Below are positions 9,729 through 50,439 of a stretch of 64,000 nucleotides of DNA, in pieces (positions within the stretch are counted from its first letter, which is position 1; every line of letters starts with the position of its first letter). The notes beneath the pieces were generated by a model, which did not search any database, had not been told where the DNA came from, and worked only from the letters and a program-made list of their open reading frames with translations. This DNA is from Nodosilinea sp. P-1105 (GTDB lineage: Bacteria > Cyanobacteriota > Cyanobacteriia > Phormidesmidales > Phormidesmidaceae). The stretch lies in assembly GCF_012911975.1 (NCBI RefSeq), contig NZ_SMDQ01000007.1, forward strand, positions 1 to 64,000, written 5' to 3'. Both the position numbers and the translations under genes were made by a program.

Positions 9729-9838
9729 TGAGAGCATCGGTACAGAGACCCGGTTTCCCAGCCAGCGGACCAATCGTGCTGTTAGTGCAGCGACTCAGAA
9801 ATTGAGTTTTTAGGCATACTGTACCGATCCTCGCTCAG
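9729..9838. repeat. Palindrome-ended element related to the 107-bp MITE family
   Basis: GAGCATCGGTACAG at 9732-9745 and its partial inverse CTGTACCGAT at 9819-9828 bound about 75 bases; outer flanks CCCTGAG/CTCAGGG also pair. The ends match those of the MITE family at 13738, 22458 and 50271, but the interior is unrelated to theirs. It overlaps the 3' end of the next minus-strand gene by a few bases. Confidence 0.55.
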
Positions 9839-13737: not shown

Positions 13738-13844
13738 CTAGAGCATCGGTACAGTATGTCAAGATCCCAGGGTTCTGTCCCTGGATGCCCCAAAAAACGT
13801 GGCCAATCAGCCCAAGAACCCTGGGATCTGAACCGGCGTTCTAG
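13738..13844. mobile_element. 107-bp palindromic MITE-like element, copy A
   Basis: Bounded by CTAG on both sides. The ends are CTAGAGCATCGGTACAG and the partial inverse of it, and a strong inner inverted repeat ATCCCAGGGTTCT/AGAACCCTGGGAT can fold the whole unit into a long hairpin. Its reverse complement aligns end to end with copy B at 22458-22564, which has the same length of 107 bases. It ends 8 bases before the stop codon of the rhodanese-fold gene, where the hairpin could also act as a 3' end structure. Confidence 0.85.
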
Positions 13845-16170: not shown

Positions 16171-16224
16171 TTTGGGGGAGTGCGTAGTTTTGAGTTTTGA
16201 GTTTTGAATGGGGGAGGTGGGGGA

Positions 16225-16545
16225 GTGGATGGGTGGTAGACGCGGAGCGGCTTCCCGCAGGGTAGGGTGGATGGGGTGATGGGTGGTAGACGCGGAGCGG
16301 CTTCCCGCAGGGTAGGGTGGATGGGTGGTAGACGCGGAGCGGCTTCCCGCAGGGATGGGTGGATGGGTGGTAGACGCGGAGCGGCTTCCCGCAGGGTTGG
16401 GTGGATGGGTGGTAGACGCGGAGCGGCTTCCCGCAGGGTAGGGTGGATGGGTGGATGGGTGGTAGACGCGGAGCGGCTTCCCGCAGGGTTGGGTGGATGG
16501 GTGGATGGGTGGTAGACGCGGAGCGGCTTCCCGCAGGGTTGGGTG
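16225..16545. repeat. Tandem array of seven GCGGAGCGGCTTCCCGCAG units
   Basis: Seven copies of a core GTAGACGCGGAGCGGCTT followed by CCCGCAGGG (cores at about 16242, 16292, 16333, 16377, 16418, 16468 and 16518) are separated by variable GGATGGGT spacers, giving a period of roughly 40-50 bases. The core is the short-repeat type common in filamentous cyanobacteria. Because units have no stop codons, all three minus frames stay open, giving false frames with peptides such as PCGKPLRVYHPS. It lies between convergent genes rhtA-like and htrA. Confidence 0.9.
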
Positions 16546-16908
16546 GATGCCTGTCCTGAGCGAAGTCGAAGGGGGGGATGGGCGCTGCCCTGAGCTTGTC
16601 GAAGGGTGGATGGGTGATAGACGCGTTTCGCAAGCGACATGGAACGCGAAGCGTGTGCAGCGCACGTAAGCGGCTTCCCGCAGGGTTGGGGTGTCCGGTT
16701 CCCCTCTTGGGAGGCCTGTGCTGTTCGCGTAGCGGCCCCGGAGGGGCAACTTGTCGAAGTAGGCAGGGGTGGGTTTGCGAGAATTTTGGACTTTAGATCT
16801 TGGATTGAGAGGGAATTGGTTGGGGAGTTTTGAATTCTGAATTTTGAATTCTGAATTTTGCTACGCACGGGCTACGCCCTACGTTTTTCTCTTTTCCTTT
16901 TTCGTTCT
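16546..16908. repeat. Composite repeat island
   Basis: Downstream of the tandem array lie, in order, REP-type palindrome pieces (CCTGAGCGAAGTCGAAGG, CTGAGCTTGTCGAAGG), a degenerate array unit, a block containing TTCCCCTCTTGGGAGG and GGGGTGGGTTTGCGAGAAT, AT-rich TTTTGAATTCTGAA motifs, CTACGCACGGGCTACGCCC and a TTCGTTCTTC tract. The same pieces occur in reverse order and orientation at 34371-34640. The copy here carries an extra stretch at about 16711-16766 between two of the pieces. Confidence 0.75.
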
Positions 16909-22457: not shown

Positions 22458-22564
22458 CTAGTGCGCCGATACAGATCCCAGGGTTCTTGGGCTGGTTGGC
22501 CAGGAATTTTGGGGTATCCGAGGGCAGAACCCTGGGATCTTGACATCCTGTACCGATGCTCTAG
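22458..22564. mobile_element. 107-bp palindromic MITE-like element, copy B
   Basis: Same length as copy A and matching its reverse complement throughout: left end CTAGTGCGCCGATACAG, core with TTGGGCTGGTTGGCCAGG and ATTTTGGGGTATCC, right end CTGTACCGATGCTCTAG. The inner arms ATCCCAGGGTTCT and AGAACCCTGGGAT form a long stem. It occupies most of the gap between divergent cruP and the ABA4-like gene, ending 21 bases before the latter's start codon, so it must influence or contain promoter sequence. Confidence 0.85.
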
Positions 22565-34370: not shown

Positions 34371-34648
34371 AAGAACGAAGAACGAAAAGGGAAGAACGAA
34401 ACCCTTTCTACTCTACGACTTCAATGCAAAATCCAAAATTCAAAATCGCCAATCCAAAATTCTCGCAAACCCACCCCTAGCCCCTCCCAAGAGGGGACCT
34501 AGACACCCCACCTTCCCTACCAAATCACCCTACCCTGCGGGAAGCCGCTCCGCGTCTACCACCCATCCACCCCCTTCGACTTCGCTCAGGACAGGCATCC
34601 ACCCATCCACCCATCCACCTCCCCACCTCCCCATCTCCCCACTCCCCA
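34371..34648. repeat. Composite repeat island, second copy
   Basis: GAAGAACGAAGAACGAAAAG, CAAAATCCAAAATTC motifs, ATTCTCGCAAACCCACCCC, CTCCCAAGAGGGG, one unit CCCTGCGGGAAGCCGCTCCG, a REP piece (CTTCGACTTCGCTCAGG) and a CT microsatellite follow one another. They are the reverse complement, in reverse order, of the island at 16546-16908. The copy here lacks the extra piece present there. It lies between the radA stop and the glutaredoxin start. Confidence 0.78.
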
Positions 34649-44904: not shown

Positions 44905-47900
44905 AGCCCAGAGATCGTATAGGCGGCCCAGTAATAGGGATGGCGATAGGGACGGTCCGGCGACCGATGCGACTCTATTGTAGAAGCGGATTGGGAGTTT
45001 GAACCGATGCGCCTGAGTTCATCCTGCAGGGTGAGCCGTAAGGAGCCTTTATCGAGGCCACTGCGATCGATTAGCTCAATGTAGCCCTGGAGAGTCGTTG
45101 CAATTTGATCATAGGTGGCGGTTTTGAGAAAGGCCTGGGCAGCTCGTAATGCCTGGGCCGGGGGATCTCCGGTCAGCAACGCCTGGTAAAACTGGCTGAC
45201 AAAGATCAGACTAGAGCCAGACTCGATGCGCCATAGGGTACTGACCACACAGCCCGCATTAGCTTTGAGGAAGGCGCTGACCAGGCCCACATAGTCATCG
45301 GTAATGGTTTGGTTGCCCGCCACCCCAGTTTCACAGGCGGCCAGGAATACCAGTTGGTAGGGACTCAGGTCGTGGTAGCCCAGGTCGGGGGCAGGGTGGA
45401 CAATATCGGCCAGGGTAAGGCGATCGCCCCCGGTCAAAAACAGACAAGACTGGGCTGGATTACGACTGTTGTAGAGCCCATGACCAGTAAAGTGAAACAC
45501 ATCATGGGTCTGCCCCAGCGCACCTAAGAGGCGATCGTAGGGCACCTGCTGATTTTCCAGCGTGGTGATTCGCCCTGGCTGGTCACCCCCGGACTCTCGG
45601 AATTGTTGACGAATCAGTTCGGCTTCCACCTCAGCAAAGGGCAGTTCATCCAGCTTCTGGGTCAGGGTTTTGACCGTGGCAGTGCTCTTGGGATTTTCTG
45701 CGATTAGCAGGTTTTTATAGACAGGAGGCTCAGTTTGGGATAGACGGTCTAGGCCAACTTTGGCACTCGGCAGGTAGGTGCAGTCGTACCGGTCAAAAAA
45801 GATGTGCAGGGGAAACCGATGCAAATCCCGATGGGGAATCAGCCGCAGCCGCTGGATGGGATAGTCTTGCAAGGCAGCGTGGATCGCCTCAACATTGAGC
45901 AATTGGCCCAGGAATTCTAACCGGCTGTCCATCTGGGTGCGCCAGGGATGTCCCCTCCGCCAGGCTGTAAGGTCTACGGTTTTAGGAGGTTGCTCAAAAT
46001 AATTGGCCTCTCCCAAGTTGTGCCCTTCGACTTCGCTCAGGGCACCCGCTGGCTGAGCGAAGTCGAAGCCAGCGGGCTGCTTATCGGTTTTATTTTGGGC
46101 CGAACTGTAGTTGTCATAATCCTGGTTCCACTGGCTCAGCCAGTCCTCCCAACCGAGGAGTTGCTTCAGCCCCGGGGGGCGTTCGTCGTTGGCTAGGACT
46201 TGGGTAGGATCAACAGCGAGGTCTGGCGGCGGAATCACCACCGGCTCTGTGGCCCCCGGCAGCAGCAAAAAGGTGGTCAGGGCCGCCGGGCTCAGGTGCC
46301 AGTAAACCATCGCCGTGTGCTCATCCACCAGCGCCTGCATCTGCTCGCAGGTAATATCGGGCACCTCATCCAGGTCCAGCAGCCAGCGCAGGCAAACATT
46401 TTTAGCCGTCTCGGCGGTGCTCAGGGCCTTGCGAAAATCTCCTGCCTGGATGGCCGCATCCACGGTCAGTTGCTCGAACTTTGCGAGCCAGAGGCCCAAC
46501 TGGTGCTGACGTTCATGGTTATGGCCAGCCTCCGCCAATACTCGCTGAATGTAGGCCGTCGCCTCTTGTTGCAGGGTCTCAGCTTCCTGGGTTTCCCCGA
46601 TGCCCAGTAAAGCTCGGATCAGGTCTTGCAGGGTTTCAAAATACAGTGTTTCAAACTGGGGTGGTTGTAATGTCTCTAAAGCCCGCCTAAAGCTATTAGC
46701 GGCTTTGCGCCAGTAGGGCCGAGGGCTGACTTGCTTCCGTCCTTCAAAATAATGGGCTCGACCAATGGCGCGATGCAATGTTCCCCAGCCTTCGGGGTGA
46801 GTGTCTTTGCATATAGCTTTCTTTGGTTCGTCTTGGGAGTTTTCCCCCAGTTCGGCTTGATAGCTGTTGAGTTGTCCCTGATAGCCGCCAACTCGTAACT
46901 CGGGCCGGGATCGACTGGGGTGCCGGGCGGCATCATCCGTAATTTTTTGCAGCACATCAGGTAAAACAGGTTGATTAACCAGAAACTGCAATTCCGCCGA
47001 AGTAGGCGCAGCAATGATGACCTCCAGTTCTGGCGAGGGAGGCTGCTGAATCAGGGCTAAGAGCTGAGGGTTGTCAGCATCGACAAAGGTTTGGGATAAT
47101 TGAGTTTTGGATTGTTCCAGAGACTTCAAGACATGTGCTCGGATGGCATCAACATCACGGTTGAAAAAGCTAATTAGAGTGAGGCGGGAGCGGCTATCCA
47201 GTTCTTGTTGAATTTTTAGTCTAAAGAGTGACTCATTGTCAGGGCGATAGCCAGCCAGCCAGGCCACAGTAACGCCTCGGTTGACCCAAACTTCAACAAG
47301 GTCTGGCTGTAAGGAGATGGCCTGGTCATAGCTGGCCAGAGCCTCCTCGTAACGCCCCAGGTTCTTTAAGGTATTGCCTCGGTTGACCCAAACTCTAATG
47401 AGGTCTGGCTGTAAGGAGATGGCCTGGTCATAGCTGGCCAGAGCCTCCTCGTAACGCCCCAGGTCAGCTAAGGTATTGCCTCGATTGAACCAACCTATAG
47501 CATCGTCCGGTTGTAGGGGGATGACTTGGTCATAGCTGACTAAGGCTGCCTCGTGACGCCCAAGCTTATCCAAGGTGATGCCTCGGTTGACCCAAGCTGC
47601 AACATAGTCCGGTTGAAGGGAGACGGCTTGGTCATAGCTGGCCAGGGCTTCCTCATAACGTCCCAGGTCATCTAAGGTGCTGCCTCGGTTGCCCCAAGCC
47701 TTAACATCGTCCGGTTGAAGGGAGATGACTTTGTCAAAACTGGCCAGGGCTGCCTCATAACGCCCCAGATCCTTTAAGGTGATGCCTCGGTTACCCCAAC
47801 TCGCAACATCGTTTGGTTGCAGAGAGATAGCCTGCTCATAGCTGGCCAGAGCCTCCTCGTAACGTTCCAAGTTCTTTAAGGTGCTGCCTCGCATGCCCCA

Positions 47901-49112
47901 GGCCGTAAAATTTTCTGGTTGCAGGGAGATGGCCTGCTCAAAGCTAGCAAGAGCCTCTTCGTAACGCTCTAGGTTATCCAAGGTGAGGCCTCGGTTGCCC
48001 CAGGCCGTAAAATTTTCTGGTTGCAGGGAGATGGCCTGCTCAAAACTGGCCAGGGCCTTCTCATAACGCCCCAGGTTATGTGACAAAATGATGCCTCGAT
48101 TACCCCACGCCATAGCAAGGTCTGGCTGAAGAGAGATGGCCTCCTCAAAGCTGGCCAGGGCCTCCTCATAACGCCCCGGATTATGTGACAAAACGACGCC
48201 TCGATTGTACCAAGCCATAGCATCATCCGGTCGTAAGACAATGACTTGGTCAAAGCTGGCCAGTGCCTCCTCATAACGCTCCAGATTATATAAGGTGTCG
48301 CCTCGGATGTTCCAAGCCTGAGCCTCATCTGGTTGAAGGGAGATGACCTGGTCAATGCTGGCCAGGGCCTCCTCATAACGCCCTAGATATTTTAGGGTGA
48401 GGCCTCGATTGCCCCACGCCATAGCAAGGTCTGGCTGAAGGGAAATGGCCTGGTTACAGCTGGCCAGAGCTTTTTCGTAACGTCCCAGTCTATATAAGGT
48501 GAGACCCCGGATACTCCAACATGTAGCAATGTCGGGTTGGAGAGAGATAACCTGGTCATAGCTGGCCAGAGCCTCTTCATAACGCCCCAAATTAAAGAGT
48601 TTGTCGCCTTGATCTAACCAGTCACTCGCTATCAGAGATTTCGGTTGAGGCGTTAGCGATAAGTCAACGCTTTCTGATTGGTCAACTGTCAGGTCAGGCT
48701 CCAGCACAGAGGCTTGTTTGGGGTTTTGCAAGTTAGCTGCATTCTCAGCAGACTCTGACGTTGCTGAAAACTCCACCGCTGGTGGTGGCTCTGGGCCTTG
48801 GATGATAGCTTGCCCCAGAGTCTTTGCAATCTCTGCCAGGCTACCCTCGGCCACCTCACTCAACCGCAGCAACCCCTGGCCAAACTCGGTCTCGGGCTGC
48901 TGTACCCATTGGCCTCCGTACTGCGTCATCCACTGGGCCACTTGTTCTGGAGTCAGCCCCTGGTTTTGCAGGGTGGCTAAAAGCTTTGGCCAACTGGCCC
49001 CCTGGCTAGCCTGGGTCGCCAAATCCTTCACCAGGCTCTCATACTCTGCCTGGCTTAGTGATTCAGTAGGCGGCGGCTGGGGTTTTCTCCAGCGCTTGAA
49101 CGGGTTCAGCAT
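44901..49112 (-). CDS. TPR-CHAT caspase-like protease (CHAT operon, gene 1)
   Basis: 1403 residues. Residues 1-165: N-terminal region with a Gln-rich helical segment (SLSQAEYESLVKDLATQ). About 170-615: thirteen near-identical 34-residue TPR units (GRYEEALASYDQAISLQPD...AW.NRG). About 615-1010: further helical linker including AETLQQEATAYIQ. About 1030-1403: CHAT domain with catalytic His1211 in FTGHGLYNSR and Cys1260 in FLAACETGVAG. Both catalytic residues are intact, so protease activity is expected. Residues about 1012-1031 are the translation of a REP-type palindrome inserted in frame. The TPR array should sense a protein partner. Such proteins act in programmed-cell-death or defence settings, which is family knowledge rather than proof here. 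Confidence 0.92.
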   Translation of the reverse strand: MLNPFKRWRKPQPPPTESLSQAEYESLVKDLATQASQGASWPKLLATLQNQGLTPEQVAQWMTQYGGQWVQQPETEFGQGLLRLSEVAEGSLAEIAKTLGQAIIQGPEPPPAVEFSATSESAENAANLQNPKQASVLEPDLTVDQSESVDLSLTPQPKSLIASDWLDQGDKLFNLGRYEEALASYDQVISLQPDIATCWSIRGLTLYRLGRYEKALASCNQAISLQPDLAMAWGNRGLTLKYLGRYEEALASIDQVISLQPDEAQAWNIRGDTLYNLERYEEALASFDQVIVLRPDDAMAWYNRGVVLSHNPGRYEEALASFEEAISLQPDLAMAWGNRGIILSHNLGRYEKALASFEQAISLQPENFTAWGNRGLTLDNLERYEEALASFEQAISLQPENFTAWGMRGSTLKNLERYEEALASYEQAISLQPNDVASWGNRGITLKDLGRYEAALASFDKVISLQPDDVKAWGNRGSTLDDLGRYEEALASYDQAVSLQPDYVAAWVNRGITLDKLGRHEAALVSYDQVIPLQPDDAIGWFNRGNTLADLGRYEEALASYDQAISLQPDLIRVWVNRGNTLKNLGRYEEALASYDQAISLQPDLVEVWVNRGVTVAWLAGYRPDNESLFRLKIQQELDSRSRLTLISFFNRDVDAIRAHVLKSLEQSKTQLSQTFVDADNPQLLALIQQPPSPELEVIIAAPTSAELQFLVNQPVLPDVLQKITDDAARHPSRSRPELRVGGYQGQLNSYQAELGENSQDEPKKAICKDTHPEGWGTLHRAIGRAHYFEGRKQVSPRPYWRKAANSFRRALETLQPPQFETLYFETLQDLIRALLGIGETQEAETLQQEATAYIQRVLAEAGHNHERQHQLGLWLAKFEQLTVDAAIQAGDFRKALSTAETAKNVCLRWLLDLDEVPDITCEQMQALVDEHTAMVYWHLSPAALTTFLLLPGATEPVVIPPPDLAVDPTQVLANDERPPGLKQLLGWEDWLSQWNQDYDNYSSAQNKTDKQPAGFDFAQPAGALSEVEGHNLGEANYFEQPPKTVDLTAWRRGHPWRTQMDSRLEFLGQLLNVEAIHAALQDYPIQRLRLIPHRDLHRFPLHIFFDRYDCTYLPSAKVGLDRLSQTEPPVYKNLLIAENPKSTATVKTLTQKLDELPFAEVEAELIRQQFRESGGDQPGRITTLENQQVPYDRLLGALGQTHDVFHFTGHGLYNSRNPAQSCLFLTGGDRLTLADIVHPAPDLGYHDLSPYQLVFLAACETGVAGNQTITDDYVGLVSAFLKANAGCVVSTLWRIESGSSLIFVSQFYQALLTGDPPAQALRAAQAFLKTATYDQIATTLQGYIELIDRSGLDKGSLRLTLQDELRRIGSNSQSASTIESHRSPDRPYRHPYYWAAYTISGL
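46019..46078. repeat. REP-type palindrome inside the CHAT gene
   Basis: CCCTTCGACTTCGCTCAGGG is followed by CTGGCTGAGCGAAGTCGAAG, giving an inverted pair identical in type to the intergenic repeats at 14663-14703, 16552, 23081 and 34565. It lies in frame, between the TPR/linker part and the CHAT domain, and is translated as GFDFAQPAGALSEVEGHN. No frame shift results. Confidence 0.85.
47270..48600. repeat. 102-bp tandem repeats encoding TPR units
   Basis: Thirteen copies of a unit of 102 bases (105 in two of them) are highly similar at the DNA level, with blocks such as GCCAGAGCCTCCTCGTAACG repeated. DNA identity this high across units points to recent duplication or gene conversion, and the copy number should vary between strains. 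Confidence 0.85.
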
Positions 49113-50270: not shown

Positions 50271-50373
50271 CTAGAACGCCGGTACCGATCCCAGGGTCTA
50301 CCCTGGGATACCCCAAAATTCCTGGCTAATAAGCCCAAGAACCCTGGGATCTTGCCATTCTGTACCGATGCTC
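50271..50373. mobile_element. MITE-like element, copy C, with inverted core
   Basis: The ends (CTAGAACGCCGGTACC at left, CTGTACCGATGCTC at right) have the orientation of copy B, but the core (GGGATACCCCAAAATTCC, AAGCCCAAGAACCCTGGG) has the orientation of copy A. The core has therefore been flipped within its own inverted arms. The right terminal CTAG is lost. Compared with A and B it is 103 rather than 107 bases. Confidence 0.8.
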
Positions 50374-50439
50374 ATACAGCAGGTCTAAGGACAAAACCCT
50401 CCCACGACCTGGAAAGTTAGGGCAAACCCTCAGCGTCGG

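Follow-up and report, generated by a model that had tools for sequence, protein, structure and literature searches.

In a family of MITE-like elements of about 107 bp, a 38-nt core lying between 15-bp inner arms occurs in both orientations. We think it probable that the element is non-autonomous and that the hairpin-loop spacer between its short inverted-repeat arms is occasionally inverted when replication switches template, or through a comparable process driven by the structure, the flipped loop being a rare mutation that exploits the structure of the element rather than a programmed switch.

Anatomy of the element and its copies in the window

The window, the whole 64,000-nt stretch that was analysed, belongs to a 6.0-Mb draft genome in 195 contigs and holds three copies of the family: copy A at 13738–13844 (minus strand), copy B at 22458–22564 (plus) and copy C at 50271–50376 (plus). 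Copy C had at least 41 DNA matches genome-wide, itself counted (E ≤ 4.9e-22; scoring covered 40 of the 159 first-look candidates), 40 of which spanned at least 99 of its 103 nt, a family resemblance far beyond chance. The element is MITE-like in being short, multicopy, non-coding and bounded by terminal inverted repeats. From the left it consists of an outer end (CTAGAACGCCGGTAC), an inner arm (AGATCCCAGGGTTCT), a loop of ~38 nt, a second inner arm (AGAACCCTGGGATCT), a short spacer and the other outer end (CTGTACCGATGCTCTAG). The outer inverted repeats are 15–17 bp long in a CTAG/TA context, and the inner hairpin module measures 65–68 bp, each of its 15-bp arms being itself a near-palindrome. 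Nested within this module is a smaller hairpin, in which the left inner arm also forms base pairs with the beginning of the loop, leaving arms of ~9 bp and a 5-nt loop, TTCTG. The orientation of the ends is defined because the outer ends can be distinguished left from right and the spacer lies on the right side only.

Both ends were present in 87 elements, most of them 106–107 nt long. CTAG stood at both ends in 50 of the 87 and TA at both ends in 75, with matching tetramers other than CTAG in 5, as either a target-site duplication or a conserved end might give, and 78.6% of outer-repeat pairs were formed. Short, without coding capacity and with terminal inverted repeats and TA at most ends, the element is presumably comparable to the CTAG/TA-bounded MITEs of the IS630/Tc1 type, such as Nezha.

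Copy C extends to ~50376, where the final CTAG is degraded to CATA. On the plus strand it comprises the left outer end CTAGAACGCCGGTAC (50271–50285), the inner hairpin module of core and inner arms (50286–50352; arms 50287–50297 and 50341–50351), a small nested hairpin, ATCCCAGGGT / ACCCTGGGAT, with a 2-nt loop (50288–50309), and the right spacer with an outer end of the type of the reverse complement of CTAGAGCATCGGTACAG, its last 4 nt degraded (50353–50376). All three copies lie outside long ORFs. Copies A and B sit between ORFs of at least 90 aa; copy C is followed on the right by a transporter-like gene (EamA) and overlaps a 75-aa ORF that had no Pfam match (three ORFs beside C were scanned). 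Rfam gave no match in the window at gathering scores.

Other repeats were seen in the same window. At 16175–16604 and 34519–34608 there are direct repeats of ~42–50 nt that are matched by an inverted set at a distance of 18 kb (GTAGACGCGGAGCGGCTTCCCGCAGGG), and 47172–48599 holds a two-block array with a 102-bp period and copies 61–79% alike.

Orientation of the core and of the nested loop

The initial annotation had described copy C as having ends in the orientation of copy B and a core in that of copy A, and both parts of this description agree with our alignments. The ends of C are B-like on the plus strand (left CTAGAACGCCGG, right CTGTACCGATGCTC at 50360–50373), the right parts of B and C matching directly at 94% and the left ends of A and C inversely at 93%. 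The core of C is A-like, with a direct match of 81% to A and an inverse match of 90% to B, and copies A and B match inversely as whole elements (88% over 107 nt). The annotation had also read C as the rearranged copy, its middle flipped between the inner inverted arms. A middle flipped in this way relative to the ends is what we find, but in A and B: as the genome-wide HMM classes place C among the forward copies and A and B among the inverted ones, C has the ordinary, majority arrangement.

For the census, two end patterns, a core pattern and the places returned by two DNA searches were merged into 135 places, which were fetched with their flanks. An HMM was built from 33 forward copies, a second HMM was the same with its 68-nt inner module reversed, and both were run on 132 loci. 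L042, L048 and L101, which overlap neighbours, were dropped before counting, and L098, of the second subfamily, was excluded from the inverted class. This scoring of core against end orientation across the family, which had been proposed as a check, separated two groups: the 154 places in the 132 loci comprised 80 forward (C-like) and 14 inverted (A/B-like), leaving 60 unassigned places that were solo ends, partials or members of the second subfamily. Copy C scored as forward by 39.5 bits (100.0 v 60.5), while A and B scored as inverted by 46.7 bits (119.1 v 72.4) and 38.8 bits (110.5 v 71.7), respectively. The objection that the core might be too symmetric for an orientation to be assigned fails, as the seven clearest inverted copies were separated by 28.9–46.7 bits. 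A second genome, the related MAG G018, had 27 forward, 2 inverted and 13 other among 42 distinct places, after removal of 4 duplicate rows.

Flipping the inner hairpin in silico brought individual copies back to their forward relatives. Aligned unaltered, copy A and forward copy L150 differed at 25 of 107 positions, and with the 68-bp inner hairpin of A flipped at only 1 of 107; the flipped module of A (13762–13829, minus strand; arms 13762–13776 and 13815–13829 around a 38-nt loop) is identical to that of L150 over 68 of 68 positions, and A matches L150 and L114 in ends and core alike. Copy B differed from forward copy L149 at 31 of 107 positions and at 7 of 107 after flipping back, with a flipped module (22473–22540, plus strand; arms 22473–22487 and 22526–22540) identical to that of L149 at 67 of 68. 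A flip of the whole interior between the outer repeats was ruled out, since the right-side spacer stood behind the left end in 0 of the 87 elements.

Several longer versions of the element were also observed (L017, L028, L053, L058, L070, L087, L104, L115, L121 and L127; 167–341 nt, most 218–220), with an insert of ~112 nt, of the GTTGACTAACGGCGG... type, within the left inner arm. The insert is partly duplicated in L121, and L115 is a longer version that also has an inverted core.

The nested 5-nt loop varies in orientation as well. Counted by class, in a test inapplicable to inverted-core copies, the 64 forward elements that have both ends comprised 49 with a TTCTG-type loop, 7 with CAGAA and 8 that were unassigned; one further CAGAA loop was found in an unclassed element. 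L151, an inverted copy of G018, also has a small-loop flip.

G018 shares loci with the host genome of the window, which allowed orthologous elements to be compared. Long matches between flanks linked 13 pairs of loci. L177/L064, L155/L097, L219/L050, L179/L140 and L159/L016 were dropped as the element was not clearly in the same place, L159/L026 as one side had an end only, and L153/L082 as both sides had the left end only. This left six orthologous pairs with an intact or nearly intact element on both sides and aligned pieces 85–94% identical. In three (L208/L095, L176/L030 and L183/L046) the loop of one genome was the exact reverse complement of the other, TTCTG v CAGAA, with all five positions changed and with ordinary scattered substitutions and indels around it. 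The change ran in both directions, CAGAA being on the side of the host genome in L208/L095 and L183/L046 and on that of G018 in L176/L030. Loop orientation was the same in both genomes for L213/L029, L182/L113 and L185/L057, the last pairing being based on coordinates and sequences. These loci provide direct evidence, at the level of the sequence, for inversion of the 5-nt loop in situ. Exact spacer inversion with arms kept at orthologous sites, the pattern looked for under template switching, was therefore found for the 5-nt loop in 3/6 pairs and for the core in 0/6, and the case for the core flip comes from paralogues. At the excluded L159/L026 locus, G018 has nearly the whole element and the host genome the right end only, an apparent one-sided partial deletion.

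A second subfamily combines the same outer ends with AGAAACCCGGTTTCT-type arms and a different loop. Nine of its ten examined copies with both ends in the host genome lie in one orientation, and the tenth (L068, a long one) was not assignable. A diverged copy in the window, with AGAAACCCGGTTTCT-type arms and the other core (9738–9832, plus strand), has the usual orientation (forward 25, reverse 11). Its left end resembles a right end, with GAGCATCGGTACAG immediately preceding the arm, as though it had been overwritten by the opposite outer end. In G018, copy L209 is turned (forward 11, reverse 66) compared with L227 (forward 48, reverse 15); the second arm and core type flips too.

The plasmid search matched a single record, Kovacikia minuta plasmid pA (NZ_CP083583.1), in which 15 places (L236–L250), 13 of them with both ends, have the same outer ends and very similar copies of 104–106 nt, apparently a young family from a recent burst. 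The 13 assignable copies all share one core orientation, and the other 2 of the 15 places are without an end pair. This shared orientation indicates that transposition is not accompanied by flipping each time. The phages searched gave no match and the viral contigs 0 matches.

Origin of the flipped loops

Under template switching, one strand would fold or switch template at one arm during replication, the switched strand would copy the spacer from the opposite strand, and it would then switch back at the other arm, leaving a precise spacer inversion with the arms unchanged. We infer the polymerase step, the dependence on replication and a flip of the 38-nt core at its own locus like that of the 5-nt loop. 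Hairpin-mediated template switching was one of two mechanisms raised in the initial annotation, and it is the best supported, by the exactness of the inversion, the retention of the arms, recurrence, the two nested stems and the independence of arm sequence. A yeast study describes DNA polymerase template switching at short inverted repeats as giving arm homogenisation and reversible spacer inversion (PMC8604942), and a plastome study describes hairpin loops that flip, their state changing several times on the tree ('flip-plop'; PMC6824564).

Inner-arm pairs were 94.6% formed, with 4 cells changed on both sides, a value reached by 0/500 shuffles. Covariation of the inner arms was 0.048 v 0.026 shuffled (0/500 reached it), but 0.050 with the structure slid by −1 column. 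This pairing, and the covariation relative to shuffles, are as expected from homogenisation of the arms, or from selection acting on the stem. The small stem showed no excess of covariation (67/500 shuffles reached it).

We placed the cores on trees to count their changes of orientation. Sixteen rows without recognisable arms were set aside, 12 of which were re-added to a 90-row tree, L016, L030, L057 and L095 being left out. On this tree the 14 inverted cores need 13 changes, against a mean of 13.2 with shuffled labels (286/500 shuffles as low), and the starred branches force 3 changes. With 72 of the 90 rows kept, those of 66–70 nt only, the full-length cores gave 8 orientation changes, and a single clade for the 10 inverted rows was rejected (P = 0.015, AU test). 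Neither one clade for the 7 strongest inverted cores (P = 0.164) nor L129 and L079 together (P = 0.363) was rejected; identical rows on both sides (L128, L150) were left free in the one-clade tests, and resolution of a single clade is weak because the core alignment has 68 columns. Inverted cores lie dispersed through the core tree, so flipping has probably recurred, and more than one origin of inverted cores is well supported. About 8 core flips on a tree of 5.9 × 68, or ~400, substitutions correspond to ~1 flip per 50, a rough figure as the tree is weakly resolved. A single genome here offers dozens of replicate hairpin copies with two nested loops able to flip separately, so spacer inversion, normally observed at individual loci, becomes countable against substitutions.

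We considered whether cores were instead replaced by those of other copies, paired in reverse via the palindromic inner arms (ectopic exchange, or gene conversion), which we judge unlikely as an account of the family. Reverse pairing between copies is possible because the arms are near-palindromic and common to dozens of copies: exact arm pairs 25–50 nt apart numbered 42 in the host genome and 0 in controls. The ends of copy B are 6 nt off those of L149, its nearest core relative, and forward copies show only moderate linkage of end and core (rho 0.33). Copy A, however, agrees with L150 and L114 over the ends as well as the core, with the 1/107 difference after flipping. Inverted L079 and forward L087 share both a core variant (44/45) and a shortened right spacer, TTGCATACTG, seen in these two of the 87 elements only; this pattern points to flipping within the element, and at least that core would have flipped inside its own ends. 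Apart from their 5-nt flips, the orthologous elements likewise differ by substitutions and indels scattered along them. Five inverted copies qualified for a test of linkage between ends and core, which was clear in copy A only; the mean rho of the inverted copies was 0.20, near the 0.26 of the forward copies, and 32/2000 permutations reached 0.20. Because this test is informative for few copies, exchange is possible for inverted copies other than A, and some, such as B, may possibly have arisen by it.

The inner module also occurs without the rest of the element. Exact arm pairs were found in 7 of 17 other genomes searched, 32 in total (16 in G001, then 6, 5, 2, 1, 1 and 1), all of the same genus, with 0 in three same-genus and seven other-genus genomes; Phormidium sp. 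FACHB-1136 and the Leptolyngbyaceae MAG CSSed165cm_216 are relatives with the same motif, and the Phormidium genome is presumably G001, the places of the matches being identical. In 20 stretches from G001, G002, G004, G006 and G008 (L188–L207), the arms AGATCCCAGGGTTCT/AGAACCCTGGGATCT span 65–68 nt overall around mostly unrelated loops and between mostly unrelated flanks, and CTAG ends are mostly absent, L206 keeping a left end. In G001 and G002 the modules form tandem sets whose flanks are repeated as well, and in G004 two similar modules are adjacent. With paired inverted near-palindromes, fixed spacing, a variable spacer and many copies, the inner module resembles a REPIN. It is conceivable, though quite improbable in our estimate, that the module is a genus-wide REPIN-like unit whose near-palindromes are kept by a trans-acting single-strand enzyme or binding protein, that its capture in CTAG-bounded ends made a composite MITE, and that core flips are by-products of the action of this enzyme on the palindromes instead of polymerase template switching.

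A search for a RAYT flanked by the same palindrome covered 7 Y1_Tnp places in the host genome and gave 0 matches to AGATCCCAGGGTTCT at ≤3 mismatches within stretches of 3.2–3.4 kb; with no subfamily-1 arms near these places, the RAYT link was set aside. The same search returned, at L228, three second-arm-type matches at 3 mismatches, unremarkable and with two of them being one place on both strands, and the best that the seven loci gave for the element ends was two weak right-end matches, each with 4 mismatches. The 3 DDE_3 places had no element end within 4 mismatches, and these IS630-type loci were rejected as the parent transposon for want of shared ends.

An invertase acting on the element, the other mechanism of the initial annotation, would use the inner arms as crossover sites. 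The arms are strongly conserved, also with unrelated loops in same-genus genomes, as the 42 and 32 exact pairs against 0 in controls attest. Flips occur, however, at differing stems, the 15-bp core arms and the shorter small stem of 9 bp, and also between the other arms of the second subfamily, so there is no single shared crossover site, and the 13/13 assignable Kovacikia copies are unflipped. A segment of 38 bp or 5 bp is also very short for two synapsed recombinase sites. The differing stems, the differing arm sequences and the unflipped Kovacikia copies are unlike a site-specific switch, and we regard an invertase as very unlikely.

There is little more to be said for the inner module as an independent, REPIN-like mobile unit inserted into the outer ends in either orientation, to which we attach only a slight probability. 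Exact-arm modules with unrelated loops, mostly without CTAG ends, are scattered over same-genus genomes, including in tandem sets. Against insertion, copy A and forward copies have identical junctions and core (68/68 with L150; 1/107 after the flip), which contradicts it for copy A, and none of the 7 Y1_Tnp loci carries the arm in the stretches examined. Misorientation of the hairpin loop by the assembler of a draft in 195 contigs has a negligible probability, as the flips recur in independent assemblies (the host genome and G018), ordinary substitutions lie around the orthologous 5-nt flips and the 15-bp arms presumably fall short of the length of typical assembly words and reads.

Comparison with known systems

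The spacer-inversion mechanism that we favour is itself already known, being described in yeast (PMC8604942), and what we find, nested loops inverted repeatedly in a family of bacterial MITE-like elements, is a variant of it. In both, short inverted repeats keep their arms while the spacer is inverted exactly, recurrently and reversibly; in yeast the arms are also homogenised, of which the inner-arm covariation relative to shuffles may be the counterpart here. The yeast account differs in concerning single loci in coding genes, with arms of >9 bp and spacers giving substitutions of 2–5 bp, whereas here a multicopy mobile element carries two nested hairpins with loops of 5 and ~38 nt. The small hairpin-loop inversions of plastomes are likewise stem-bounded loops in an A and a B orientation, but at plastome loci rather than in dozens of paralogous copies of a cyanobacterial genome (PMC6824564). 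A narrow literature search returned, among the matches listed, no report that loops flip repeatedly within a MITE family of bacteria.

Among bacterial repeats, the Correia repeat enclosed element of Neisseria, a short MITE-like repeat, is named in a MITE review as reported to invert (PMC10969869). There it is the element itself that is described as inverting; in our family the inner module is turned with respect to the outer ends, and 0 of 87 elements showed a flip of the outer ends. The cyanobacterial Nezha is cited in that review too (PMC10969869). In contrast to IS630/Tc1-type MITEs, our element had no transposase with its ends among the 3 DDE_3 places. As described for them (PMC3116915), REPINs resemble the inner module of the relatives in their two inverted near-palindromes of ~15–16 bp, fixed spacing, poorly conserved spacer and tandem clusters that include flanks; they differ in that no Y1_Tnp gene with these palindromes lay nearby in the host genome, and in that the module here sits inside CTAG-bounded outer repeats.

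Orientation inside small repeats such as these is homoplastic and unsuited to building repeat subfamilies. Apart from the flips, the inner module is noteworthy for recurring across the genus without the outer ends.
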